Origin: Maribacter sedimenticola | GTDB taxonomy: Bacteria; Bacteroidota; Bacteroidia; Flavobacteriales; Flavobacteriaceae | Reading direction: 5' to 3' | Assembly (NCBI RefSeq): GCF_900188415.1 | Contig: NZ_FZNV01000002.1 | Location: 43,339-107,338 of the forward strand | DNA: 64,000 nt | Part shown: positions 4,042 through 39,476 of the stretch, in pieces | Layout: each line of letters opens with the position of its first letter | How positions within the stretch are numbered: position 1 is the first letter of the stretch | Program-made: the position numbers and the translations under genes | Notes under the pieces: generated by a model | What the model saw: only the letters and a program-made list of their open reading frames with translations | What the model was told of the DNA's origin: nothing | Database searches by the model: none

Positions 4042-5126
4042 TTGGCTTTGTAAAATGGCAATTTGACCACTGTTGCAGGAATGGCCTTCTTACGGATTTG
4101 GATTTGGATTTTGCTACCGTATTCTGAAAATACCGTAAGTACGTAACCTAAACCTATACCAGTTCCCATAGAAGGGGACATTGTACCGGAAGTTACGGTA
4201 CCAATAGTTTTTCCATTTCCATCTACAATATCGTACCCATGTCTTGGTATACCTCGTTCATTCAATTCAAAAGCGACCAATTTTCGTTCCGGGCCATGTT
4301 TCTTTTCTTTTTCCAGAGCCTCTGAATTCACGAAATCCTTAGTGAATTTAGTGATCCAGCCCAGGCCTGCTTCAAATGGGGAAGTTGTATCATCAATATC
4401 ATTTCCATATAGGCAATACCCCATTTCCAAACGTAAGGTGTCCCTAGCGGCCAATCCGATCGGCTTTATTCCAAATTCGGCTCCTGCTTCAAAAACCTTG
4501 TCCCAAATTTGTTTTACCTCCTCGTTCTTACAATAAATTTCAAATCCACCGGAGCCTGTATAGCCCGTTGCAGAAATAATAACATGGTCTATACCGGCAA
4601 AGTCAGCCACCTCAAAATGATAAAATTTTATAGTAGATAAGTCAATGGAAGTAAGTGATTGCATAGCTTCAACTGCTTTTGGCCCTTGTATGGCAAGAAG
4701 GGAGTAACCTTCAGAAATATTGCGTATATCTGCATTGAATTCCTTGTTATAAGCAGCAATATGTGCCCAATCCTTATCAATATTGGAAGCGTTAACGACC
4801 AATAGATATTGATCATCCTTTATGCGATAAACAATAAGATCATCCACAATACCACCCGTTTCATTGGGCAGGCAGCTATATTGTGCCCTTCCTATGGTTA
4901 ATTTGGAAGCATCGTTGGAAGTTACACGCTGTATAAGGTCCAATGCATTGGGACCGGATATTAAAAATTCACCCATGTGCGAAACATCAAAAACCCCAAC
5001 ACCGTTCCGTACCGTTTCGTGTTCGGCATTTACGCCTTCGTACGAAACTGGCATATTGTATCCGGCAAAAGGAACCATTTTTGCCCCTAGCAATTCATGT
5101 GTTGTAGTAAGTGCTGTATTTTTCAT
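4038..5126 (-). CDS. gcvT: Aminomethyltransferase, glycine cleavage system T-protein
   Basis: This 362-residue protein is the size of bacterial GcvT. It starts [23 protein letters not shown]. The folate-binding fold is marked by [11 protein letters not shown], by [12 protein letters not shown] near residue 190, and by [20 protein letters not shown]. The protein transfers the methylene group of glycine to tetrahydrofolate and releases ammonia from the H-protein-bound intermediate. gcvP and gcvH are not in the window. It is the first gene of the operon and has a consensus promoter directly upstream. Confidence 0.95.
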
Positions 5127-27734: not shown

Positions 27735-28841
27735 ATGAAATCATCATTTAATTCATTTGATTATGAAAAATTAGAAGATGACGCTAATATTGTTCCTATG
27801 AGCAGCGCATTGTCTAAAACGGAGCGATTTTTTAAAGTCGGCCCCTACATCCTATGGTTTGGGATACATATCTCCATCAGTTTGGTACTTGCATATCAAA
27901 GAAGTCTCGCAGATACTATTTACTATTTGGTAACCTATATATTTTTAGGGTCCTTGATTATTTGGCTTTTTGGATATAAACTCTTTCCCGAATACTTGGC
28001 AAGGGAAGGGAACATCAATCGAAGATTGGGACTGTTGATTACCACGAATATCATTCTTTTTGTTATCGGAATCTATGCGCATACCATTATGGCGGAAATA
28101 TTGGGGTTAAACCAGATCAGTGACCAATACGCCCCTAAATCGGTTCGTATCGCTTTGTGGCTTTTAATGGTTTTATTAGGGATAATTTTTGTGGCCAGTA
28201 TTCGAGTAGCACATGTTTATTACCTTAATGCAGTTCAAAAAGTTGAACATAAAGTGGAAAGAGCCGAGGCCGAACTGAGATTGTTAAAAAGTCAAATAAG
28301 CCCTCATTTTCTATTCAATACGTTGAATAACATCTACGGGCTTGCCTACTTGAGAGATGAAAGAGCTGCTGAAATGATTTCAAAACTATCCAAGCTGTTG
28401 CGTTATTTACTGTATGACTGCGATCGGCCCAAGGTACCTTTGGCCAAAGAAAAGGAACTGATAGAACACTATTTGAGTATACAGTTGCTTAAGCATGAAG
28501 ATTCCCGCAATGTTGATTTCTATCATGCAGGAATTACGGATAACAATAAAATTGCGCCTATGATCCTTATCAATTTTATTGAAAACTGTTTTAAACACTC
28601 CGATTTGGAAACCAATCCCCGAGGTTGGATCAAGATTGGTTTGGAAGTGGAAAAAAACGAACTTAGTTTTAAGACAGAAAATACCTTCAAGGATAAAGTT
28701 AAGGAAGTTGAAAGGGATCAAATGGGAATAGGGCTTAGAAATTCATTAAAACTTTTAGAGGCCAATTACCCAGAGAAGCACGAAGTTGATATCACCAAGG
28801 AAAATAACGTCTATCAACTAGACCTAAAGATTACGTTATGA
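27735..28841 (+). CDS. LytS/YehU-type sensor histidine kinase
   Basis: This 368-residue protein has about four membrane helices (35-155), a coiled linker and a His_kinase (PF06580-type) domain. The phospho-acceptor is His191 in SQISPHFLFNTLNNIYGL. The ATP-binding N-box is in PMILINFIENCFKHS and the G-box is short (MGIGLRNS). No extracellular sensor domain is present, so the signal is probably read in the membrane. The stop overlaps the response-regulator start by 4 nt. Confidence 0.92.
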   Translation: MKSSFNSFDYEKLEDDANIVPMSSALSKTERFFKVGPYILWFGIHISISLVLAYQRSLADTIYYLVTYIFLGSLIIWLFGYKLFPEYLAREGNINRRLGLLITTNIILFVIGIYAHTIMAEILGLNQISDQYAPKSVRIALWLLMVLLGIIFVASIRVAHVYYLNAVQKVEHKVERAEAELRLLKSQISPHFLFNTLNNIYGLAYLRDERAAEMISKLSKLLRYLLYDCDRPKVPLAKEKELIEHYLSIQLLKHEDSRNVDFYHAGITDNNKIAPMILINFIENCFKHSDLETNPRGWIKIGLEVEKNELSFKTENTFKDKVKEVERDQMGIGLRNSLKLLEANYPEKHEVDITKENNVYQLDLKITL

Positions 28842-29569
28842 AAATGAAATGTCTAATTGTCGATGATGAACATATTGCCCGAAAGATTCTTTCGGATTAT
28901 GTTGGCAAAGTCCCTGAGTTGGAACTGGTGGCTTCCTGCAGTTCTGCACTGCAAGCGCTCAACCATATTAAAAATGATCGTATAGATGTTTTGTTTCTCG
29001 ATATACAAATGCCCGATCTTACGGGGCTGGACTTTCTGAAAATCTTACCGAACAGGCCAGCTACCATACTTACCACGGCCTATTCCGAGTTTGCAGTTCA
29101 GAGTTATGAACTCGATGTTGTAGACTATTTGTTAAAACCGATAGATTTCGACCGATTTTATAAAGCGGTCACCAAAGCTATTTCACTTAAAGATTCAAAA
29201 GCTGATTATCCCGTAACTGCATCACCCTCAATCTCTCCGCCTACGGACAAACTATTTATTAAAGCAGACAGTAAAATCATCAGCGTCGCATTTCAGGACA
29301 TCATTGTCATTAATGGCCAAGGTCCCTATGTACAGTTAATTACCGTTCATGATCGTAAAATTATGACGTTGCAGTCAATGAGTAAATTAGAAGAAATGCT
29401 TCCTGCCAATTTTCACAGGATACATCGTTCTCACATTGTCAATATCAATCATATAGACAGTATTGATGGTTATATGGTTAGATTAAAAAATCATACGGCC
29501 ATAGTGAGTAAAAACAAACGAGACGAATTTCTTAAGCTAATTGATCAGCACAATTTATTGGGGGACTGA
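28838..29569 (+). CDS. LytTR-family response regulator
   Basis: This 243-residue protein has a receiver domain with acidic pocket (IVDDEH) and phospho-acceptor Asp55 in VLFLDIQMPD, and the Lys switch in LLKPIDF. The C-terminal LytTR DNA-binding domain (about 145-240) contains FHRIHRSHIVNINHIDSI. It is translationally coupled to its kinase. The nearest plausible target is the divergent secreted operon 27591-25415, since pairs of this kind often regulate neighbours. Confidence 0.93.
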   Translation: MKMKCLIVDDEHIARKILSDYVGKVPELELVASCSSALQALNHIKNDRIDVLFLDIQMPDLTGLDFLKILPNRPATILTTAYSEFAVQSYELDVVDYLLKPIDFDRFYKAVTKAISLKDSKADYPVTASPSISPPTDKLFIKADSKIISVAFQDIIVINGQGPYVQLITVHDRKIMTLQSMSKLEEMLPANFHRIHRSHIVNINHIDSIDGYMVRLKNHTAIVSKNKRDEFLKLIDQHNLLGD

Positions 29570-29926: not shown

Positions 29927-31567
29927 TTATTCTTTAAAAAGCTCTTGAATAACTTCTCCTGTAGTGGCATTTGGGAATTTCAAGCCCAACATAAGTGTTA
30001 AGGTGGGTGAGATGTCGGTAATACTTTTACGTTTTGTACTCGACCCTTTTGGAATATTACTGCCATACCAAAGCATAGGCACATGGGTGTCATAGGTGTA
30101 TCCGCTACCGTGTCCGGTTCCGTATTCCCTAAAAGAACTCCAAGCTGCGTTAAATAATATTACAACGTCCCCTGAGCGCTGTATATGGTATCCTCTCTGT
30201 ACCATTCCTTTTTCATCTGTAGTATATTCAAATCTTTCTAAATCCGGTCTTAGCATAACTTCAAAAACACCCGGTACTTTCATCAACTCATTTTTACATA
30301 CATTTAATACCGCATTAAAATCCAGCTTTTTTGAATCTATAAGTTCTCTATTTAAAAACAATTGATCACCTGATATAGCCTCAATCATTCCATCAAGATT
30401 ATAAAGGGATTTAAGCTTGTTTTGAACTTGAGCCATAACCGCTTCAGGATGATACGTTCCGGTAGGTATTTTCTGTTCTTCAAGGTATACGCTCACATCT
30501 GAAGCCGCATGATCTGCCGTTAAAAACAGCGTGTAATTGCCTTTGCCAACTTTGCTATCTAGTTGTTCTAATATAAGCGCCAAGTCTTGGTCTAAACGTA
30601 AATAGGTGTCTTGCACTTCAATGGAGTAGGGACCAAAAGCATGGCCAATCTTATCGGTACTTGAAAAGCTTACGGCTAAAAAATCCGTTTCATCACCCTG
30701 TCCTAAATTTTCATGTTCAATGGCTTCAATAGCTAGTTCGGCAACAATTGTATTTCCGTAAGGAGTTTCTGGAAGTATCTCGTAACGTTCCTTATTCGAT
30801 AAGGATTTATACGCGTAAGGAAATTTTGAATCCTTTTTGTGTGCAAATACCGTTTCATACACCTGTTGGTCTTTTGTGCTTTCTTTGTATTGTTCAATAG
30901 GTAAAAGCGTATTCCAATCTGTTTTTAGGTGCTTATTTACCTTATTTTCTTTATTGAATTTTTGCATCCAATCGGGTAGGGTTTCCATGTAATAAGTACT
31001 GCTAATAAAATTACCATTACTGTCATCATACCAATAGGCAGCATCTGCCATATGGCCTGCTGGCAGGATAGCACCTCTATCTTTAAGGGATATACCAATG
31101 ACTTTAGAACGACCCTGACTTGAAAGTTGCAACTCGTCAGTAATTGTGGTGGCCAACATTTTATGCGGGGATCGTTCCCCGTTATCTGAAGTACTTCCTA
31201 TTGTTCTTACGTTACCATCAAAAACACAGTTTTCATCTTTTTTTATATCCTTGTGGTACCAACTATTACTAATGATTCCATGAAATTTAGGAGTTGTTCC
31301 GGTATATACCGAAGCATGACCAGGAGCCGTTTTGGTAGGGATATAATTATAATGGGCGTTCTTAAAAACATAACCATCATTCATAATTCTTTTAAAACCT
31401 TTGTCGCCAAATTTGTCTTGAAATCTGGTGAGGTATTCTGCCCTCATTTGATCCACAATAATGCCAACAACTAGCTTTGGCTTTTCCGCTTTTCCATCTT
31501 GCATGTACCCATTAAAGGATATTGCCAGTATTGCTAGAAGTAAAAAAGGTTTTAATTGAAGTTTCAT
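29927..31567 (-). CDS. PafA-like alkaline phosphatase family protein
   Basis: This 546-residue exported phosphatase of the alkaline phosphatase superfamily has a signal peptide (KPFLLLAILAISFNGYM). Metal-binding Asp39 is in VVGIIVDQM. The Thr nucleophile is in IPTKTAPGHASVYTG (Thr80 most likely). Later metal ligands are in FGPYSIEVQDTYLRLD, FLTADHAASDV and STDKIGHAFGP. It probably releases phosphate from monoesters in the periplasm. It lies 34 nt behind the phytase gene, which suggests stepwise dephosphorylation of inositol phosphates. Confidence 0.88.
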   Translation of the reverse strand: MKLQLKPFLLLAILAISFNGYMQDGKAEKPKLVVGIIVDQMRAEYLTRFQDKFGDKGFKRIMNDGYVFKNAHYNYIPTKTAPGHASVYTGTTPKFHGIISNSWYHKDIKKDENCVFDGNVRTIGSTSDNGERSPHKMLATTITDELQLSSQGRSKVIGISLKDRGAILPAGHMADAAYWYDDSNGNFISSTYYMETLPDWMQKFNKENKVNKHLKTDWNTLLPIEQYKESTKDQQVYETVFAHKKDSKFPYAYKSLSNKERYEILPETPYGNTIVAELAIEAIEHENLGQGDETDFLAVSFSSTDKIGHAFGPYSIEVQDTYLRLDQDLALILEQLDSKVGKGNYTLFLTADHAASDVSVYLEEQKIPTGTYHPEAVMAQVQNKLKSLYNLDGMIEAISGDQLFLNRELIDSKKLDFNAVLNVCKNELMKVPGVFEVMLRPDLERFEYTTDEKGMVQRGYHIQRSGDVVILFNAAWSSFREYGTGHGSGYTYDTHVPMLWYGSNIPKGSSTKRKSITDISPTLTLMLGLKFPNATTGEVIQELFKE

Positions 31568-31601: not shown

Positions 31602-33632
31602 CTATTCGGGCATAATGTCGCGCCAGTCGTAAATATGAAATGTTTTATCCGTAGACATACCAACGAACATACCTTTTGGAAACTCTTCGTTTATAGCAAC
31701 GGAAGTAACATCAGACCCATCACTTTCTAGGGTTAAAAGTTCTACGGATTTTAGTAATACGTGTTTGTTAGGAGCGTCTTTAGCGCCTTCTCTAGGGTAG
31801 ATGTTAAACGTATTTCGTTGTTGGTCGGAAATAAGAATATATCCAGTTCCATCATCATTTTTATAAATACTGATACCCTCTATATCACGGCCAAAATCTT
31901 TAGTACCGAACAAGGCTAATTCTTCGTCTCCCTTTTTCGGGTCGGCATAATATTTTCTAACCCCATAAGCTTCATCAGAATAATAAATATATCCCAATTC
32001 ATTATCGACGGCGATGGCTTCAATTTCTTTAACACCGCTATAGTTTCCGAAATCTCTAACCTTGGTAATCATGGCTGTACCTTTTGGTGAACTATGAATT
32101 TTATACTGCGATAAATACCCAGTGGCAGGCCCTGTTTTTGGACCAACAATAGCATAAATTTCTTTGGTCTTTTGGTCGGTGTAGAGCGCTATCCCCATTG
32201 GGTCACTAATTTCCCTATCCGTGAATACAGGAAGTCCTCCTCCATCAATAGGTTTCATGTCTGGTAGTGAAAATATTCTCAATTGATTATTACTTCTCTC
32301 GGTGGTAACGGCAATGTCTACAAAATTTCCGTGTAACTTAAAGTCATATGCGATATCAACGTTGTTGGGGCGTTGTAAATCTAGTACGCATTTTTCTTTA
32401 ATAATTTTCCCCTGTAAATCAAAGGCATATAATCCGCCACCATCTTCTTTATCCGTGCCAATAATGAAACTGTTGGATGGGTCTTTTTTGTCAATCCATA
32501 TAGCAGGATCATCGGTATCGAATACTACTTTTTCCGTAATGTATTTTGGATGGATGGCATTCTTTGTGTGCTGAGGTAAACCATCGGGAGCAATTAATAG
32601 GTCTTCACCTGCAATGTCTTCCCAGCTATAGAAATGGAAAGTTTTATCATCAGACATGGCCACAAAAAGTCCTTTTGGAAAAAGTGTTCCCAATGACGCA
32701 TTGGTAACTTCAGAACCATCACTTTCATTGGTCATCAAGTCAATCACTTTTACAACTTGATGGTCATGTGGGTTGTCATTAGTGCCTTCACGAGAAAAAA
32801 GATGAAATTTATTTGCTTGTTGGTCAGATACAATGATATACCCTGTACCTAAATCGGTCTGATAAATGCTTAAGCCTTCATGGTCTTCGGTGAAATTTTG
32901 AGTTGCGAATAAGGCTAGTTCCTCATTTCCTTTATCGGCATCCGCATAATATTTTCTTACGCCAATACCTTCGTCAGAATAGTAAACATAACCTAATTCA
33001 TCATCAACAACAATAGCCTCTATTTCATTTTTACCACTATATTTTCCGAATTCTCGAATCTTTTTACCGGTAATATTTCCTTGTAAATCACCTTCCAATT
33101 TATATTGCCAAATGTAACCATCGGTAGGTCCGGATTTTCGTCCAACAAAAGCAAACACTTGGTCATCAGCATCTTTGTATAGCCCTACACCCATAGGGGC
33201 TCTTAATTCTTCGCCTTCAAAAACAGGTATTCCGCCATTATCAATAGGTGTCATTTCTGGCACTCTAAAGATTCGTATTTTATTGGTTAACCTTTCTGTG
33301 GTGACGGCAATGGAGAATTCTTCTTCACCCATTTCAAACTCTTCAATATCAACATTATTAGGGCGTTTAAGGCCTTTTACGGTTTTGCTTTCAATTATTT
33401 TTCCGTTTAAATCATATACATATAGACCGCCATCTTCATTTTTATCTGTTCCTATAATCAAACTTTCTTCAGGGTTGTCCTCATTGATCCATATGGCCGG
33501 ATCATCTGTATCATGTGGTGTTTGTTCTGTAATAATTTTAGGTCGTAGCGCATTTTCACTATGTTGAACAGCTTGCTTACAACTTTGAAAAAGGATAATG
33601 GTTAATATAAAAAGGGGTCTAAGATTCATCAT
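31602..33632 (-). CDS. Lipoprotein with two tandem beta-propeller phytase domains
   Basis: This 676-residue protein has a lipoprotein signal ending in LFQSC (Cys17) and two consecutive beta-propeller phytase (3-phytase) domains, about 28-345 and 358-676. Both copies carry the family signatures: DTDDPAIWI, IGTDK, RPNNVDI, AVTTER, GYVYYSDE or GYIYYSDE, EGLSIY or EGISIY, and SDQQ followed by SDGSEVT or SDGSDVT. These supply the Ca2+ and phosphate site residues. Dual-domain phytases are known; the extra domain is thought to raise activity. The protein is probably surface or periplasmic and hydrolyses phytate. Confidence 0.92.
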   Translation of the reverse strand: MMNLRPLFILTIILFQSCKQAVQHSENALRPKIITEQTPHDTDDPAIWINEDNPEESLIIGTDKNEDGGLYVYDLNGKIIESKTVKGLKRPNNVDIEEFEMGEEEFSIAVTTERLTNKIRIFRVPEMTPIDNGGIPVFEGEELRAPMGVGLYKDADDQVFAFVGRKSGPTDGYIWQYKLEGDLQGNITGKKIREFGKYSGKNEIEAIVVDDELGYVYYSDEGIGVRKYYADADKGNEELALFATQNFTEDHEGLSIYQTDLGTGYIIVSDQQANKFHLFSREGTNDNPHDHQVVKVIDLMTNESDGSEVTNASLGTLFPKGLFVAMSDDKTFHFYSWEDIAGEDLLIAPDGLPQHTKNAIHPKYITEKVVFDTDDPAIWIDKKDPSNSFIIGTDKEDGGGLYAFDLQGKIIKEKCVLDLQRPNNVDIAYDFKLHGNFVDIAVTTERSNNQLRIFSLPDMKPIDGGGLPVFTDREISDPMGIALYTDQKTKEIYAIVGPKTGPATGYLSQYKIHSSPKGTAMITKVRDFGNYSGVKEIEAIAVDNELGYIYYSDEAYGVRKYYADPKKGDEELALFGTKDFGRDIEGISIYKNDDGTGYILISDQQRNTFNIYPREGAKDAPNKHVLLKSVELLTLESDGSDVTSVAINEEFPKGMFVGMSTDKTFHIYDWRDIMPE

Positions 33633-33650: not shown

Positions 33651-34073
33651 TTAAATTTTCTTTCTTAAAATTTTTCCTTCCTGATCAAAAAGGATATCAT
33701 AGGTTTTACCATCTTTTTCCAAATCAACTTCATAGAGTATTTTACCCGCTCTGGTCGCTACCAATTCTATATCCAGAATTTCATATTCTCCCATCTTGGT
33801 TCGTAGCGTTTGTAAAACTTTGTGGGGTAGTTCATCTACTGCTATTTCTGTTTCTGTCTCTAACCATTGACCTTGTTCATCAAAATAGGAGCTTGTATGT
33901 TTGGCCGATAAAAAATAGTCGACCTGGTAAATATTATTTTCTACAGTCCAAAGTACATCCTCTGCTTCAGGAACCTTATCCATAAATGATTTTTGCACAT
34001 GTTTGGGTATGGTTACCTGTTTGCATGTAATAACAAGAATGCATACGATGATGATAAAAATTGATTTTTTCAT
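33651..34073 (-). CDS. PepSY-like small lipoprotein
   Basis: This 140-residue protein has a lipoprotein signal (KKSIFIIIVCILVITC, Cys17). Two PepSY-like/DUF2874 repeats follow, a helix then strands: FMDKVPEAEDVLWTVENNIYQVDYF with YFDEQGQWLETE, and LRTKMGEYEILDIELVATRAG with ILFDQEGKILRKK. Such proteins commonly sit with two-component systems in Bacteroidota; the role is unproven. It starts the PepSY-phytase-phosphatase unit and has its own -7 box and operator in the 45-nt gap behind the kinase gene. Confidence 0.8.
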   Translation of the reverse strand: MKKSIFIIIVCILVITCKQVTIPKHVQKSFMDKVPEAEDVLWTVENNIYQVDYFLSAKHTSSYFDEQGQWLETETEIAVDELPHKVLQTLRTKMGEYEILDIELVATRAGKILYEVDLEKDGKTYDILFDQEGKILRKKI

Positions 34074-34084
34074 TTTCTTGGTCG

Positions 34085-34117
34085 TAAAACTATATGTTAA
34101 TTCTGTAGAGAATCTGT
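34085..34117 (-). promoter_or_regulatory. Promoter and Pho-box-like operator of the PepSY-phytase-phosphatase genes
   Basis: A -7 box TAGTTTTA (minus strand, 34085-34092) is followed upstream, after 9 bp, by the direct repeat TCTGTAGAGAATCTGT (plus-strand reading, 34102-34117). The two TCTGT cores are 11 bp apart. The same arrangement precedes the TonB receptor. The site occupies the gap directly after the kinase stop codon. Confidence 0.6.
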
Positions 34118-34118
34118 T

Positions 34119-35363
34119 TTAGAATAAAAGTCGGAATTTATGGGTGTCGTTCACGTATTCATAGGATAACTTAATGTTATGAAGACGACAAATTTTTGTA
34201 ATGATGGAAAGGCCAAGACCTAAAGAATTACTTTCCGATTTCTTAAAACGTTGAAACAGTTCAGGGTTTATTGGGCCATTTTTGGCGGTATTGTAAAAAC
34301 CTATTTCTCCGGCTTTTGTACTAATTTCTATATGACCGCCGGCATTATTGTGGTTTATGGCATTTTTAATAAAGTTGGAAAATAGGACCACCACCAGTTC
34401 TGGATTGATATCGTGTAAGATTTCATGCTTAACCTCTTGGTTTAGAGTCAAATTTTTTAAGGAAATCATTTCTTGAAAATGCGCTATTTGGGATATCAGG
34501 ATTTGAGTTAGGTTTACATTTTTTTCTACTTGATATGCCCCTGATTCAATTTTGGTCAATAGCGTTAGACCCTTGTTTACTTTGGATAGGCGAAGACAGT
34601 TATTATATATTGCCATAATAGATTTGGTCTGATCATTATTAAGATCGTTCTGCTGCAATAGTTTTTCGCATCTTCTACGAATTATGGCCAAAGGTGTTTG
34701 TATTTCGTGCGCTACATTTTCAGTAAATTCCTTTAGGTTTATATAATCATACTTAATTTTGGCGGTCATTGCCAAAATAATGTCGTTAAGTTGATTAAAC
34801 TCTTGCGTACTGGTTTTATTGAGCAAGATAGGACTGGTACTTCCCAGTTCATAATTGTTTAATGTACGTAAGGTTTCCTTGAATGGAAGCCAAACTTTTC
34901 GTGAAATCAACAGATTACTAACGATTAAAAAGGCCAACAGACCCAAGAAAACAGAAAATAGAGAAAGTAATACTTGCTTGACCAGGGTGTTGGGTTGTAT
35001 TAGCGACCTAAAAATGGAGATGTCATAATAATTGTTTCCAATTCTTCTGGTAACCCGCAACATTCTGTATTTGTGAAAATTGTCATCAATGATATCATAT
35101 CTAGTGGTATCCTTAAAACAGGGCTTGTCCAAAAAAGCCTTTGAATTTGTTTTTTCAATGACCTGTTCATAGTTGTTGAGAGATTCCAACGGAATGTCAT
35201 TTACTATTTGAGTTGTTACTATTTCTTCACTATTTATGAGGAGATTGTTGATTTCTTGATCAAGAATATTATTAAAATCATAAACGATAATAAATCCCGC
35301 AGCTATGAAAAATAGAAGCGAGGCAATTACATAATAAAGGGTGGTCTTGATTAATAGTTTCAC
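34119..35363 (-). CDS. Sensor histidine kinase (OmpR-partner type)
   Basis: This 414-residue kinase has membrane helices at about 8-28 and 130-153 flanking a roughly 100-residue periplasmic sensor with a single Cys (Cys82, DKPCFKDTTRY). The dimerisation box has His219 in FTENVAHEIQTPLAII. The N-box is in FSNFIKNAINHNNAGG, and the catalytic G-box is compact (SLGLGLSII). There is no clear HAMP consensus. It overlaps the response-regulator gene by 4 nt. The neighbouring phytase, phosphatase and receptor suggest a phosphate or phytate signal. Confidence 0.92.
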   Translation of the reverse strand: MKLLIKTTLYYVIASLLFFIAAGFIIVYDFNNILDQEINNLLINSEEIVTTQIVNDIPLESLNNYEQVIEKTNSKAFLDKPCFKDTTRYDIIDDNFHKYRMLRVTRRIGNNYYDISIFRSLIQPNTLVKQVLLSLFSVFLGLLAFLIVSNLLISRKVWLPFKETLRTLNNYELGSTSPILLNKTSTQEFNQLNDIILAMTAKIKYDYINLKEFTENVAHEIQTPLAIIRRRCEKLLQQNDLNNDQTKSIMAIYNNCLRLSKVNKGLTLLTKIESGAYQVEKNVNLTQILISQIAHFQEMISLKNLTLNQEVKHEILHDINPELVVVLFSNFIKNAINHNNAGGHIEISTKAGEIGFYNTAKNGPINPELFQRFKKSESNSLGLGLSIITKICRLHNIKLSYEYVNDTHKFRLLF

Positions 35364-36037
35364 TCCTTTTGAAATTTATAGCCTATACCATAGACGGTCT
35401 TTAAATAATCCTTATCACCAGATTTAATGATTTTTTTTCTGAGATTTTTTATGTGGGTGTAAATAAAATCAAAAGAATCAAAACTATCCGTATTGTCTCC
35501 CCAAAGGTGTTCTACAATAGATTCTTTGGTGATGACCCTGTTTTCGTTACTGATAAAAAAGATGAGTAGCTGATATTCTTTTTGGGTAAGGTCTATCAAT
35601 TTTTGGTTTATGTGTACTTCTTGAGAATCCGTATTAATGCTTATGGTATCAAAAACTACCATGTTGCTACCTTTAAAATGTTTTCTCCTAATAATGGATT
35701 TTATACGTGCATTGAGTTCGTTGTAGTCAAAGGGTTTGGCCAAATAATCGTCTGCACCAAGATTTAATCCGCTCACTTTATCCTCAATGGCATCATATGC
35801 GCTTAAAATTAAAACACCGGCATTATTGTCTACTGTTCTTAACGATTTTAAAACCTCCAGACCTGATCCGTCCGGTAAGCCTATATCCAATATAATGGCA
35901 TCATAATTATACATATATATTTTTTCTTGGGCTTCGGCAACCGTTGTAGCACTTTCGCATAGAAAATGGTCTTTCTTGAAAAAATCCATTAAATCTTCCA
36001 ATAGTTCGCTCTCGTCCTCTATGATCAGCAGTTTCAT
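35360..36037 (-). CDS. OmpR/PhoB-family response regulator
   Basis: This 225-residue protein has a receiver domain with IIEDE, Asp51 in AIILDIGLPDG, the Thr/Ser position in LILSAYDA, and Lys in YLAKPFDY. The C-terminal winged helix (about 130-223) has LTQKEYQLLIFF, TKESIVEHLWG and TVYGIGYKF. OmpR-family dimers bind head-to-tail direct repeats with 11-bp period, which is exactly the pattern of the two operators found at 34102 and 39058. It is probably the activator of the receptor and phytase units. Confidence 0.93.
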   Translation of the reverse strand: MKLLIIEDESELLEDLMDFFKKDHFLCESATTVAEAQEKIYMYNYDAIILDIGLPDGSGLEVLKSLRTVDNNAGVLILSAYDAIEDKVSGLNLGADDYLAKPFDYNELNARIKSIIRRKHFKGSNMVVFDTISINTDSQEVHINQKLIDLTQKEYQLLIFFISNENRVITKESIVEHLWGDNTDSFDSFDFIYTHIKNLRKKIIKSGDKDYLKTVYGIGYKFQKE

Positions 36038-36231
36038 AACTCACATTTTAAGGCCATATATATTATTTGTAGCCTATGGATATTCCAAGATACTTAAAGT
36101 GATTAAACTAGTTGTTGAAAAAAATATTAAGACCTTATGTCCATAGTATGATGTCTTTTTATAAAATAGCTTGTTATAACCCTGTATTCGTAATTTAAAG
36201 GCTTATAGAATCGTCAAGAATTCTATTTTAA

Positions 36232-39003
36232 TCAAAAATTAAAGCGTAACCCTAATCTGCCCCAACTACCATAACGCTGACGTTCACGGGGCGTGGCAAT
36301 GGTATTGTATAGTTCAATTTGGTTTTCATCATTAATATTTACCAACTCTATATATGCCGTCATTCTTTTTTTGGCAAAAGACTGGCTCATGGTAAAATCA
36401 ATTTGCATACGGTCATCTATCCTTACTAAATCGCTACCATCAAATTCACTAGTAAAAGCACCATTATAGTTGAAGGAAAGTCGCGCATCAAATCCTTTAT
36501 TATTATAGCCCAATGCAGCATTACCAACATGTTTAGCTTGACCAGGTAAATCTATTTCGGTAATCTCGTCATCCTCGGAGAAATTTTCGACTTCAGCTTT
36601 AGAATTGGTGTACGAGTAATTTGCATAAATAACAAACCCACTTAAAAAGCCAGGTAAGAAACTTAATTTCTGTTGATAGGCCAGTTCAAAACCAATTAGA
36701 TTGGCCGTATTACCGTTAACCGATTGCGTTACTTCTACATTTGGTATTCCCCTATACTCCCTATCCGTAGTCTGTTGGTAGATAAAGTTATCCAACTTTT
36801 TATAAAACACACCGGCACTTACCAGACCTACGGTACCAAAATAGTGCTCCGCAAAAATATCAAGATTTACTGCTTCTACAGGTACCAAATCCGGATTAAA
36901 TATTTCTGCTTCCAAATCTGCGGAATTAAATACGGCGCCTTGGGCTAAGGCTTGAAAATTTGGTCTTGAATAACTCTGTGTTGCAGATGCCCTTAATATG
37001 GTATTTTCGTTAACATTATACTTGAGGTGAAGCATGGGTAGTAAAAAATTATAGTCGTTTTCTCCATTTACAGCAATAGCCTCACCGGCTTCCTCATCAA
37101 ATATGCCGGAATCATAGGTAAAACGTGTAGCTTCATATCGTAGCCCACCAAGAACCATTAGCTTTTTAAAATTGATTTTACCCATGGCATAGGCGGCATA
37201 AACATTTTCGGAAGCAATATATTCTTGGGATACGGTTTCTTCAATGGCTTTTTCCGTATCAGATTCAAAATCACCTAAATTGGCATTTACAAAGGTATCT
37301 ATCGCATTTAACGATATAAAGTTGCCCAAAGGGGTGTTGAAGCTACCGTCCATAAATCCTATGGCATTGAAATTATCTGAAAAGCTATTACTGTCCAACG
37401 TAAGGTCTTGGTCTCCGTCATATTCAAGTAGTTCAAAGTTCCTTACGGTATATTGTTTTTCCTTTAGCCTAATTTTACCTCCAAATTTAAATTCTCCTGT
37501 ATTTTCAGAAATGGTAAAGGGCATAATGATGTTAGATTTTAAGGTTATATTCTCATCTTCTGCAAGTGTGCTTTCCTTTTCATATTCCTTAAACTCGAGC
37601 AGGCTTAAATTGGTCAGGGGGTCGGCTTCGGCACCAATGCCGTTTAAACTCACCAATTTAGGGTTTAATCTGTCCGTTACGTTGAACGCAAAAGGGGAGC
37701 CTTCGTTTTCAAACACCACTTGGTCGTTACGGGGGGTATCTTGCCAGGCTTTGGAATAGGAAACTTCATAGTCAAAAATTAAACCCGGGGTAACCGTGCT
37801 GCCACCTAAATTAAGGCTAAGAACACCTTGGTTTTCTGGTCTGTCCTTTAATTCTTTGGTGTATGCATATTCTATTTCACCATCTTCCTCCTCTGCCTGG
37901 AACGTAGCCCTTCTACGCACTTCATATTCCCTCAACTCACTGAATAGGCCTCTTAGGTATAAATTGGTATTTTGTCCTTTAAAGTCCAATGTGGAGCTTG
38001 CCCCGTATCTGTTACGGTCTATAGTGTAATCTGCAATTTCCAGTAGTTCTATATCATTGGAGCCTACGTCTCCCCAGCCATCAAATTCATAGCGATCATT
38101 TTCTTTCTTACTACCTGCATAACTACCGCTTAGAATAAAACCGAATTTACCATCCTCAGAGCGCTTACTAATATTGACACTGCCTTGTCCTACAGTTTTA
38201 TCGGATGCGTTATTATATTCCATTGCGGCAGAACCGTTTATGGAAAGTTCTCTTTTGGTGGCGGTTGGTGTATTGAGGTTGACGGAACCACCAATGGCGT
38301 CGCCATCCATATCCGGTGTAATGGATTTGCTCACTTCCAATGAGGACAATTGGTTAGAGGGTATGGCGTCCAATGCAACAAATCTAGATTCACCCTCAGG
38401 GGAAGGAATCTGTTCACCATTGATGCTAATGTTCGTAAATTGCGGAGCCAGTCCGCGAACCAGTACAAAACGGCCGTCACCCTCATCGCGTTGTAAATTT
38501 ACGCCAGAGACCCGTTGTAAGGATTCTGCGGAATTTTGATCGGGAAATTTACCCATTTGATCCGCAGAGACAATACTCTTTAGATTGTCCGCTGCCTTTT
38601 GCTGGTTCAGCGCCCTTTGTTGACCTTCAAGAGAACCGGTTACGACAACATCATCTAATTGTGTTGCTTGGGGAACCAATTCCACATTAATAATTTTTAC
38701 TTCACCTGCATTTACCTGCACATTGATTTTTTTTGTTTCATTGCCCAAGTAACTTATCTCTATTTCAAAAGTTCCTTCAGATACGAAAAGGGTATATTGA
38801 CCATCAAAGTTTGCCGTAGTTCCATTGGTTGTACCGGAGATTATTACATTGGCTCCCGGTAACGGACTTTTTAGTTCAGCATCTCTAATAGTACCTTTAA
38901 CGATAGCTTTTTCTTGGGCACTGGCACAAAGGATGGTAAACAGGCTCAATAGCGTAAACAAGACCGTATTGTATGGCCTAATGACCAATTGATGTTTTTT
39001 CAT
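36232..39003 (-). CDS. TonB-dependent outer-membrane receptor
   Basis: This 923-residue protein has a signal peptide (to about residue 29, ASAQE). A carboxypeptidase-like regulatory domain (about 33-112) has VKGTIRDAELKSPLPGANV. The plug (about 125-250) has SAESLQRVSGVNLQRDEGDG and GDAIGGSVNL. The barrel ends in GRLGLRFNF with terminal Phe. The plug resembles the receptor class often annotated TonB-Xanth-Caul. No SusD partner is present, so a small ligand is more likely than a polysaccharide. The adjacent phytase and regulator suggest import of phytate, inositol phosphates or a metal-phytate complex (inference). Confidence 0.92.
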   Translation of the reverse strand: MKKHQLVIRPYNTVLFTLLSLFTILCASAQEKAIVKGTIRDAELKSPLPGANVIISGTTNGTTANFDGQYTLFVSEGTFEIEISYLGNETKKINVQVNAGEVKIINVELVPQATQLDDVVVTGSLEGQQRALNQQKAADNLKSIVSADQMGKFPDQNSAESLQRVSGVNLQRDEGDGRFVLVRGLAPQFTNISINGEQIPSPEGESRFVALDAIPSNQLSSLEVSKSITPDMDGDAIGGSVNLNTPTATKRELSINGSAAMEYNNASDKTVGQGSVNISKRSEDGKFGFILSGSYAGSKKENDRYEFDGWGDVGSNDIELLEIADYTIDRNRYGASSTLDFKGQNTNLYLRGLFSELREYEVRRRATFQAEEEDGEIEYAYTKELKDRPENQGVLSLNLGGSTVTPGLIFDYEVSYSKAWQDTPRNDQVVFENEGSPFAFNVTDRLNPKLVSLNGIGAEADPLTNLSLLEFKEYEKESTLAEDENITLKSNIIMPFTISENTGEFKFGGKIRLKEKQYTVRNFELLEYDGDQDLTLDSNSFSDNFNAIGFMDGSFNTPLGNFISLNAIDTFVNANLGDFESDTEKAIEETVSQEYIASENVYAAYAMGKINFKKLMVLGGLRYEATRFTYDSGIFDEEAGEAIAVNGENDYNFLLPMLHLKYNVNENTILRASATQSYSRPNFQALAQGAVFNSADLEAEIFNPDLVPVEAVNLDIFAEHYFGTVGLVSAGVFYKKLDNFIYQQTTDREYRGIPNVEVTQSVNGNTANLIGFELAYQQKLSFLPGFLSGFVIYANYSYTNSKAEVENFSEDDEITEIDLPGQAKHVGNAALGYNNKGFDARLSFNYNGAFTSEFDGSDLVRIDDRMQIDFTMSQSFAKKRMTAYIELVNINDENQIELYNTIATPRERQRYGSWGRLGLRFNF

Positions 39004-39040
39004 TTTGATTGGTTCTTGGTTTATTATTTAGGATATACCT

Positions 39041-39079
39041 CAAACCTAAAGGGGAAATCTGTAGGAAATCTGTAGAAAT
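39041..39079 (-). promoter_or_regulatory. Promoter and Pho-box-like operator of the TonB receptor
   Basis: The minus-strand -7 box is TAGGTTTG (39041-39048), about 38 nt before the ATG. Instead of a -33 TTG, the upstream region holds an 11-bp direct repeat GGAAATCTGTA at 39053-39063 and 39064-39074 plus a partial third unit. The core TCTGTAGGAAATCTGT (39058-39073) matches 14 of 16 bases of the site at 34102-34117, and the distance to the -7 box is 9 bp in both. This is typical of activator-dependent promoters. Confidence 0.65.
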
Positions 39080-39357
39080 TTGGTATTTAAAATTAAGATT
39101 ATTCATTTTTTAAGGTGAAAATTTTTCAAATTCGCTTTTTAAAAAGGTTTTTAAAATTATATCCTTTTTTGTTTAAGAGAATATATTAGTTGATTTCTGC
39201 AATTTCAGTTATTGTACAATGAAGAAAAACTGGACTTTTTATTTAAAAAGTTTTAAGTTATTTACATCAATAGTAAAAACAATTATTGATCTTAATAGAA
39301 ATTTTAAAACATTTTATCTTCATAATCATTAAAATTTTTATATAACTTTATACCGTA
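39080..39357. other. AT-rich divergent intergenic region
   Basis: Between the receptor promoter and the TPP riboswitch I see no ORF and no clear hairpin. A -7-like TAACTTTA at 39343-39350, immediately before the riboswitch, is the best candidate for the thiamine promoter, but it lacks a well-spaced TTG. Confidence 0.4.
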
Positions 39358-39439
39358 AACTTTAGGGGTGTTCTATTGATTTAGGACTGAGAAAAACCCT
39401 TTGAACCTGATTTGGTTAGTACCAACGAAGGGAAAAGTT
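39358..39439 (+). promoter_or_regulatory. TPP riboswitch (THI element)
   Basis: The conserved core is clear: GGGGTG, CTGAGA (39387-39392), ACCCTTTGAACCTGAT and the closing CGAAGGGAA. P1 is formed by AACTTT (39358-39363) and AAAGTT (39434-39439). It senses thiamine pyrophosphate and controls the thi operon that begins at 39568. Confidence 0.95.
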
Positions 39440-39442
39440 GAA

Positions 39443-39476
39443 AAACGCATTGCAATATGTGTTTACGCATCTTTTT
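39443..39476 (+). terminator. Possible expression-platform hairpin of the TPP riboswitch
   Basis: An 8-bp stem AAACGCAT / ATGTGTTT (one G-U) around TGCAAT is followed seven bases later by a CTTTTT run. It could be a weak terminator just downstream of P1; the loose spacing to the T-run leaves doubt, and translation control is possible instead. Confidence 0.35.

Follow-up and report, generated by a model that had tools for sequence, protein, structure and literature searches.

The window, the whole 64-kb stretch of DNA that was analysed, belongs to a genome of 4.27 Mb in 20 contigs and contains a cluster of six genes, all on the minus strand (Table 1). The regulator scored above the cut-offs of both PF00072 and PF00486, which identified a receiver domain and a Trans_reg_C winged helix and placed it in the OmpR/PhoB class. 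The predicted structure of the kinase had a mean pLDDT of 72.9 and a pTM of 0.44, and the 50 matches listed when its fold was searched were kinase cores or longer kinases, with no clue to a sensor or ligand. Cys17 of the PepSY-like protein was conserved in all 9 orthologues aligned, and this protein is a candidate feedback partner of the kinase.

Table 1. Genes and promoter elements of the cluster, in window coordinates
Feature	Coordinates	Strand	Description
TonB-dependent receptor	36232..39003	-	TIGR01782, 492.4 bits against a cut-off of 310
OmpR-type response regulator	35360..36037	-	Recognition helix FIY-THIKN-LRKK
Sensor histidine kinase	34119..35363	-	HisKA, HATPase_c; NCBIfam PorY family NF052314, 371.2 against 350
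PepSY-like protein	33651..34073	-	PF11396; hydrophobic N terminus
Phytase	31602..33632	-	Two stretches matching PF02333, 295.1 against a gathering cut-off of 21
Alkaline phosphatase PafA	29927..31567	-	NF042991 equivalog, 740.3 against 650
Operator 1	34100..34119	-	Half-sites AAACAGATT (34119-34111) and CTACAGAAT (34108-34100); ahead of PepSY-phytase-PafA
Operator 2	39056..39075	-	Half-sites CTACAGATT (39075-39067) and CTACAGATT (39064-39056); ahead of the TonB receptor
-7 box TAGTTTTA	34085..34092	-	PepSY-phytase-PafA transcript; 7 bp from the near half-site
-7 box TAGGTTTG	39041..39048	-	Receptor transcript

Two matching promoter units

The earlier note on this DNA had singled out two 16-mers, TCTGTAGAGAATCTGT at 34102-34117 and TCTGTAGGAAATCTGT at 39058-39073, each 9 bp from a -7 box. 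The sequences, their positions, and the 9-bp distance were all confirmed by reading both sites. On the coding strand each unit consists of a 9-bp half-site, 2 bp, a second 9-bp half-site, 7 bp, and the -7 box, giving CTACAGATT-TC-CTACAGATT-TCCCCTT-TAGGTTTG on the receptor side (39075 to 39041) and AAACAGATT-CT-CTACAGAAT-TAACATA-TAGTTTTA on the PepSY side (34119 to 34085), where the first base of the operator falls within the stop codon of the kinase gene. The core was CTACAG in three of the four half-sites and AAACAG in the remaining one. Compared with the flavobacterial sigma-A -7 box TAnnTTTG, TAGGTTTG conforms and TAGTTTTA differs by one letter. In F. psychrophilum this box is placed at -12 to -5 (PMC9723704), and from the positions of the two boxes the predicted +1 would lie near 39036 for the receptor transcript and near 34080 for the PepSY-phytase-PafA transcript.

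Without mismatches, TCTGTAGNNNATCTGT matched twice in the window and twice in the whole genome, both times at this cluster. Allowing one mismatch added 7 further places in the genome, none of which had a -7 box at the right distance when a relaxed pattern was used, and the composite pattern ACAGNNT-N4-ACAGNNT-N6..8-TANNTTT matched these two sites only. A stricter composite with ACAGAWT halves was found in 3 of 397 family genomes, twice in the window's own and once each in two strays, both of which had a spacer of 8 bp versus 7; the reversed control pattern had no match among the genomes listed. The many random genomic matches that the earlier note had raised as a possible objection were therefore not seen, only two exact sites being present in 4.27 Mb, and the paired-site observation was confirmed as real and far above chance.

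Conservation of the operator beside the two-component pair

A phytase search of named genomes yielded 10 loci. Eight of them (L059-L066), from three Arenibacter, two Maribacter (one a MAG), one Flagellimonas, and two more MAGs, carried the full six-gene set in an unchanged order, and the remaining two had receptor and phytase only. In every six-gene locus the repeat stood ahead of the receptor gene and again ahead of the PepSY gene, with 7 bp between operator and -7-like box at 16 of 16 sites. Kept at both places in 8/8 orthologous loci, the single operator class that had been proposed for the receptor and the PepSY-phytase-PafA genes withstood this check of site conservation. The eight loci are not independent and appear to represent about five lineages besides the window, since L063 and L064 share 95% DNA identity across 13.7 kb and the three Arenibacter loci share 86-90%. 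Invariant columns of the promoter alignments fell in the operator, the -7 box, and the start codon for the receptor (the unconfirmed G171 row included), and in the operator and the -7 box for PepSY. Deviations in L063 and L064 affected the near half-site at the receptor, which reads CTCCAG, and the PepSY -7 box, which reads TAATATTA. Among 36 genus genomes the composite pattern occurred in four, twice each in the window's genome (G000), G151, and G167, and once in G171. The operator sequences of G151 and G167 are those of the Maribacter loci L059 and L060, and hence not independent; this agreement makes Maribacter, or a close neighbour, the probable genus of the window. The G171 match is to the pattern only, at a contig end of a fragmentary, 82%-complete assembly in which no phytase was found.

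Some of these loci had additional genes. A metallophosphoesterase lay between receptor and regulator in L059, L060, and L061, and a third operator copy was seen at L063:428-461 and L064:403-436, ahead of genes for a dehydrogenase, a xylose-isomerase-like protein, and a sodium:solute symporter. The operon behind this third copy was considered as a set of inositol genes and rejected as such, since the NCBIfam matches of the dehydrogenase and the xylose-isomerase-like protein were all below cut-off; the symporter passed the general sss model only.

Phytase relatives at E<=1e-60 were present in 87 of 395 family genomes. Loci were obtained for 30 of these 87, the window's own included, and the other 29 consisted of phytase and receptor. 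Within about 1.5 kb around the phytase, these 29 loci (L107-L135) had no relative of the kinase, the regulator, PepSY, or PafA, and no operator (0/29). For 20 of them (L197-L216), 5 kb covering the receptor promoter were scanned and the operator was not found on the receptor strand (0/20), nor was it found in the two named-genome loci without kinase and regulator, at 21 kb each (0/2), giving a total of 22 of 22 scanned phytase/receptor loci without two-component genes in which the operator was not found. In these respects the stand-alone pairs, taken from other family genomes, differ from the window's cluster. The 250 bp or less upstream of the receptor in L197-L216 contained a different 11-bp repeat, TGTT[GT]C-N5-TGTT[GT]C, in nine of the 20, and 13 of the 20, those nine included, had a reading frame with SVRVxRYRLRKK. 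Judging from these elements, the stand-alone pairs of L197-L216 seem to use a different regulator.

The earlier note had read the two sites as Pho boxes. A true Pho regulon would make low phosphate the only cue for the cluster, acting either through PhoB on Pho boxes or through the local pair as a second system for phosphate starvation. It would agree with the resemblance of CTGT-N7-CTGT to the E. coli box in complement and with the liberation of phosphate by phytase and PafA. Moreover, the Flavobacterium pair Fjoh_1367/1368, which like the window's cluster joins a receptor to a PF02333 phytase, is induced on phosphate depletion (5.76 and 9.22 for phytase and receptor in the FC column, taken as log2; PMC8115612). 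Nevertheless, we consider a true Pho regulon unlikely. The local regulator is not PhoB by model score, with 140.7 bits against a cut-off of 270 for the Bacteroidetes PhoB model; the composite operator is present nowhere else in the genome, the intergenic stretch of a PhoBR-like locus included; and the 22 scanned loci without the local pair had no operator. Pho-box identity was rejected on the regulator score, the genome distribution of the sites, and the membership of the half-site in the CT[TA][TC]AGAWT family described below. Similarities to the Pho box remain in the tandem 11-bp units and the OmpR/PhoB-type regulator (PMC4415409), and in the phosphate-releasing targets, but the E. coli unit CTGTCAT is absent from the window's sites.

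The top match to the PhoB model in this genome was another regulator, at 204.4 bits also below 270, which adjoins a kinase and a divergent receptor and lipoprotein-like protein (identified by eye). The phoBR locus of F. johnsoniae has a similar gene arrangement (PMC8115612). A separate PhoBR-like locus thus appears to exist, the label resting on gene order and rank, with no match of at least 270. Between its regulator and the divergent receptor (L156:5216-5399, contig C12) lies GTAACA-N5-GTAACA, a possible flavobacterial Pho box.

The operator family and the recognition helix

From CTGT on the non-coding strand, opposite to E. coli, the earlier note had also suggested a possibly distinct operator type. 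The idea of an exotic, reversed orientation was dropped, as CTGT is the complement of ACAG and the coding-strand CTACAG aligns with PmrA boxes and with the CTTTAG/CTTCAG boxes of related regulators. The PmrA (BasR) box of enterobacteria is a head-to-tail 11-bp repeat with a C-T-x-x-A-G core on the strand as printed, and the same layout of CTxxAG half-sites in an 11-bp direct repeat on the coding strand was found at the window's operators. PmrA also shares with the window's regulator an OmpR-type winged helix and an xHIxN helix (VHIHN in the PmrA alignment). Half-sites CTTAAG and XTTAAT with 5 bp between them make up the PmrA site (PMC3973317). Unlike them, the window's half-site is CTACAG, its promoter has a flavobacterial -7 box, and its regulator scored 181.7 against the PmrA equivalog cut-off of 330.

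Related regulators, 43-54% identical apart from two close orthologues, were accompanied by adjoining kinases. The loci of these regulators were scanned for half-sites CT[TA][TC]AGA[AT]T in an 11-bp repeat with TAnnTTTR at 4 to 8 bp, which gave 65 matches in 37 of 67 loci versus 1, 0, 0, 1, and 0 in five shuffles; the 67 loci partly overlap and some sites were counted twice. All sites printed had a 7-bp spacer to the -7 box. No match was found in 30 of the 67 loci, most of which have QIKN-helix regulators, and the box of the QIKN regulators was TTCCCAATT/TTCTAGATT or TTACAGATT. By its sequence, the window's operator belongs to this CT[T/A][T/C]AGAWT family, with 7-bp spacing, beside related OmpR-type regulators. 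PepSY-like genes were near the related regulators in 5 of 47 shorter loci (within 1.5 kb; L010-L058 minus L039/L040) and in 6 of 10 longer, hand-chosen stretches. Upstream of PepSY-like genes, at L088:11761-11800 and in L089 (genes near 4826 and 5481), three 11-bp units preceded the -7 box (CTTTAGATT, CTTTAATTC, CTTTAGAAT and similar).

The base at half-site position 4 was tallied with only positions 5-9 constrained, on 54 distinct site pairs after 16 duplicates were dropped. C occupied this position in 18/18 cases for HIKN, 41/50 for QIKN/QFKN, and 1/40 for HINN regulators, and one recognition-helix residue (Lys or Asn) thus appears to go with base 4 (C or T). The Lys/Asn position corresponds in the alignment to His195 of PmrA, and presumably to Arg201 of PhoB. 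His195 is among the PmrA residues named for DNA-specific contacts, and Arg201 of PhoB bonds a guanine (PMC3973317). In the tree the phytate regulators formed one clade (98/97) beside THM[RG]N forms, the HINN regulators formed one clade, and the QIKN regulators another. Because the HINN, QIKN, and phytate forms each cluster, the helix-base rule rests on few evolutionary changes.

For a phylum hold-out, 70 of 395 genomes had a regulator match at E<=1e-68, and 28 new loci from this search were used. The strict scan gave 6 sites in five of the 28 loci versus 0 in five shuffles, the other 23 loci having none. Lys was present in all 27 helices that were readable among the 28, and base 4 at these Lys regulators was C in 8 of 10 half-sites and A in 2 (L169, register shifted). 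A looser scan without the -7 box gave 29 matches versus 10-18 in five shuffles; the prefix CTTC or CTAC appeared in 17 of 58 half-sites, and neither was among the ten commonest shuffle prefixes. The hold-out supports the Lys/C pairing, with a modest excess and in a sample that contained no Asn regulators. PepSY-like genes were present in one of the 28 loci, and PepSY is not a constant companion of the family regulators within 1.5 kb. A free-register scan for 11-bp repeats smeared the spacers over 5 to 9 without fixing the register, and was not relied upon.

The repeats could alternatively be kept for some other protein, an OmpR-type regulator or a repressor, with the local regulator acting on other targets. 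The pairing of regulator and operator was drawn from sequence, and the genome encodes four other full-length regulators above 140 bits with the PhoB model, one of them in the same family. However, the operator goes with the local pair across the loci seen, the same-family paralogue (C12:674221-674889, L055; SQIKN helix) has its own distinct box, TTCCCAATT-CC-TTCTAGAAT, and the other three carry different recognition helices, which makes a different protein improbable. The best explanation, and in our judgement a probable one, is that the local regulator reads the shared operator at both promoters.

More tentatively, and with slightly less than even confidence, we propose a phylum-wide Bacteroidota family of OmpR-type regulators and kinases with a common 11-bp operator which, wherever a promoter can be recognised, ends 7 bp ahead of its -7 box. 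Some of its pairs would adjoin PepSY-like genes, the helix residue would set base 4, and one branch would control the whole use of phytate, including its import, the release of phosphate, and the breakdown of inositol. Its probability is lowered a little by the finding that PepSY is not a constant companion. If it is true, the regulons of the operator family would be predictable from the protein sequence of the regulator. Targets could be assigned to many uncharacterised regulators with the aid of this operator family and the apparent link between helix residue and base.

Inositol genes, and the proposed circuit and signal

Eight loci had at least 2 kb of readable flank (the window, L059, L060, L061, L062, L064, L065, and L066; L063 ends at PafA), and inositol genes directly followed PafA in five of them. 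In L061, L062, L064, and L065 a class II aldolase, IolJ-like by position, was followed on the same strand by IolB, IolC, IolD, and IolA; in the three Arenibacter loci a sodium:solute symporter stood between IolD and IolA (by Pfam for L061, by size and sequence for the others). L064 had IolB, IolC, and IolD above their cut-offs, with IolE (198 versus 290) and IolG (288 versus 355; gene cut by the locus end) below. The ends of L061 and L062 take in the beginning of IolE, and L065 stops short of this gene. The fifth locus, L060, has a myo-inositol oxygenase that starts 2 bp past the PafA stop codon, plus a symporter. This oxygenase was absent from the other nine of the 10 phytase loci and from the window, whose genome has one on another contig. 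No inositol gene adjoined PafA in L059 and L066, and the window's genome has no iol cluster, the best IolD match being 235.7 against a cut-off of 715. Among 810 Flavobacteriaceae species, only 2% have a reported inositol cluster (PMC9430895).

The inositol-gene neighbours in relatives point to the use of phytate and inositol, not of phosphate alone. Since inositol genes follow PafA in these relatives, phytate or inositol would be at least as likely a signal as phosphate starvation; by analogy with the induction in F. johnsoniae on phosphate depletion, phosphate could also be the signal here, and the local pair may sense its shortage. The regulator-linked phytate/phosphate circuit put forward in the earlier note therefore stands in part: the shared operator goes with the local regulator, the Pho identity was given up, and the circuit is refined to phytate and inositol use.

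Phytate is the main phosphorus store of plants. We propose that the kinase phosphorylates the regulator, which would then bind both 11-bp repeats as a head-to-tail dimer. With the -7 box taken at -12 to -5, the near half-site would occupy roughly -28 to -20 and the far half-site roughly -39 to -31, replacing the -33 element. PmrA and PhoB activate as head-to-tail dimers at the -35 region, and the layout seen here is compatible with the same mode. The bound regulator would switch on the two promoters at the adjoining TAnnTTTR boxes. A first transcript would start from the TonB receptor and probably continue through regulator and kinase, resulting in positive feedback; the stretch that separates receptor and regulator in the window showed no TAnnTTTG box, which would fit read-through and feedback. 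The other transcript would cover PepSY, phytase, and PafA. The receptor may import phytate or partly dephosphorylated products, phytase and PafA would strip phosphate, and in several relatives inositol would be taken up and burnt via the iol or inositol-oxygenase genes at the cluster end. The PepSY-like protein likely acts on the kinase from the periplasm, either as a brake or as a signal adaptor, and the signal may be phytate or an inositol derivative.

Phytate also binds Ca, Mg, and Fe, and the kinase might sense metal ions, a shortage of cations being answered as in PhoPQ/PmrAB-like systems. The PmrA-like operator layout and recognition helix agree with such a role, as does the increase of the B. 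thetaiotaomicron PepSY-like genes BT0922-23 under low iron (PMC10434189). However, the genes neighbouring the pair are phytate and inositol genes, and we regard metal sensing as improbable. The compact two-site regulon with its defined operator makes the sensed signal (phytate, inositol, phosphate, metals) testable.

Other known systems share parts of this arrangement. Polysaccharide utilisation loci and iol clusters likewise keep receptor, enzymes, and sensor together, and catabolic genes are added in some relatives of the window's cluster; the window's cluster differs from polysaccharide utilisation loci by its TIGR01782-type receptor, the lack of SusD among its six genes, and its OmpR-type pair, and iol genes are present in some relatives only. 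PorXY of type IX secretion is similar in that the window's kinase scored above the PorY-family cut-off. PorX is a regulator without an OmpR DNA-binding domain, whereas the partner of the window's kinase is an OmpR-type DNA-binding regulator with Trans_reg_C, and not PorX. HaeSR of P. gingivalis is a characterised two-component pair of the Bacteroidota (PMC3764172). Searches of the open-access literature brought up neither a Bacteroidota regulator devoted to phytate utilisation nor this family of operators, and likewise no phytate locus that carries a two-component pair of its own.

Two further elements were observed next to the cluster. A TPP riboswitch (RF00059, 77.5 bits; window 39354-39450) adjoins the receptor promoter on the opposite strand and precedes genes resembling thiamine genes. 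A second two-component pair, a kinase with a LytTR regulator, occupies 27735-29569, its end facing the PafA gene.
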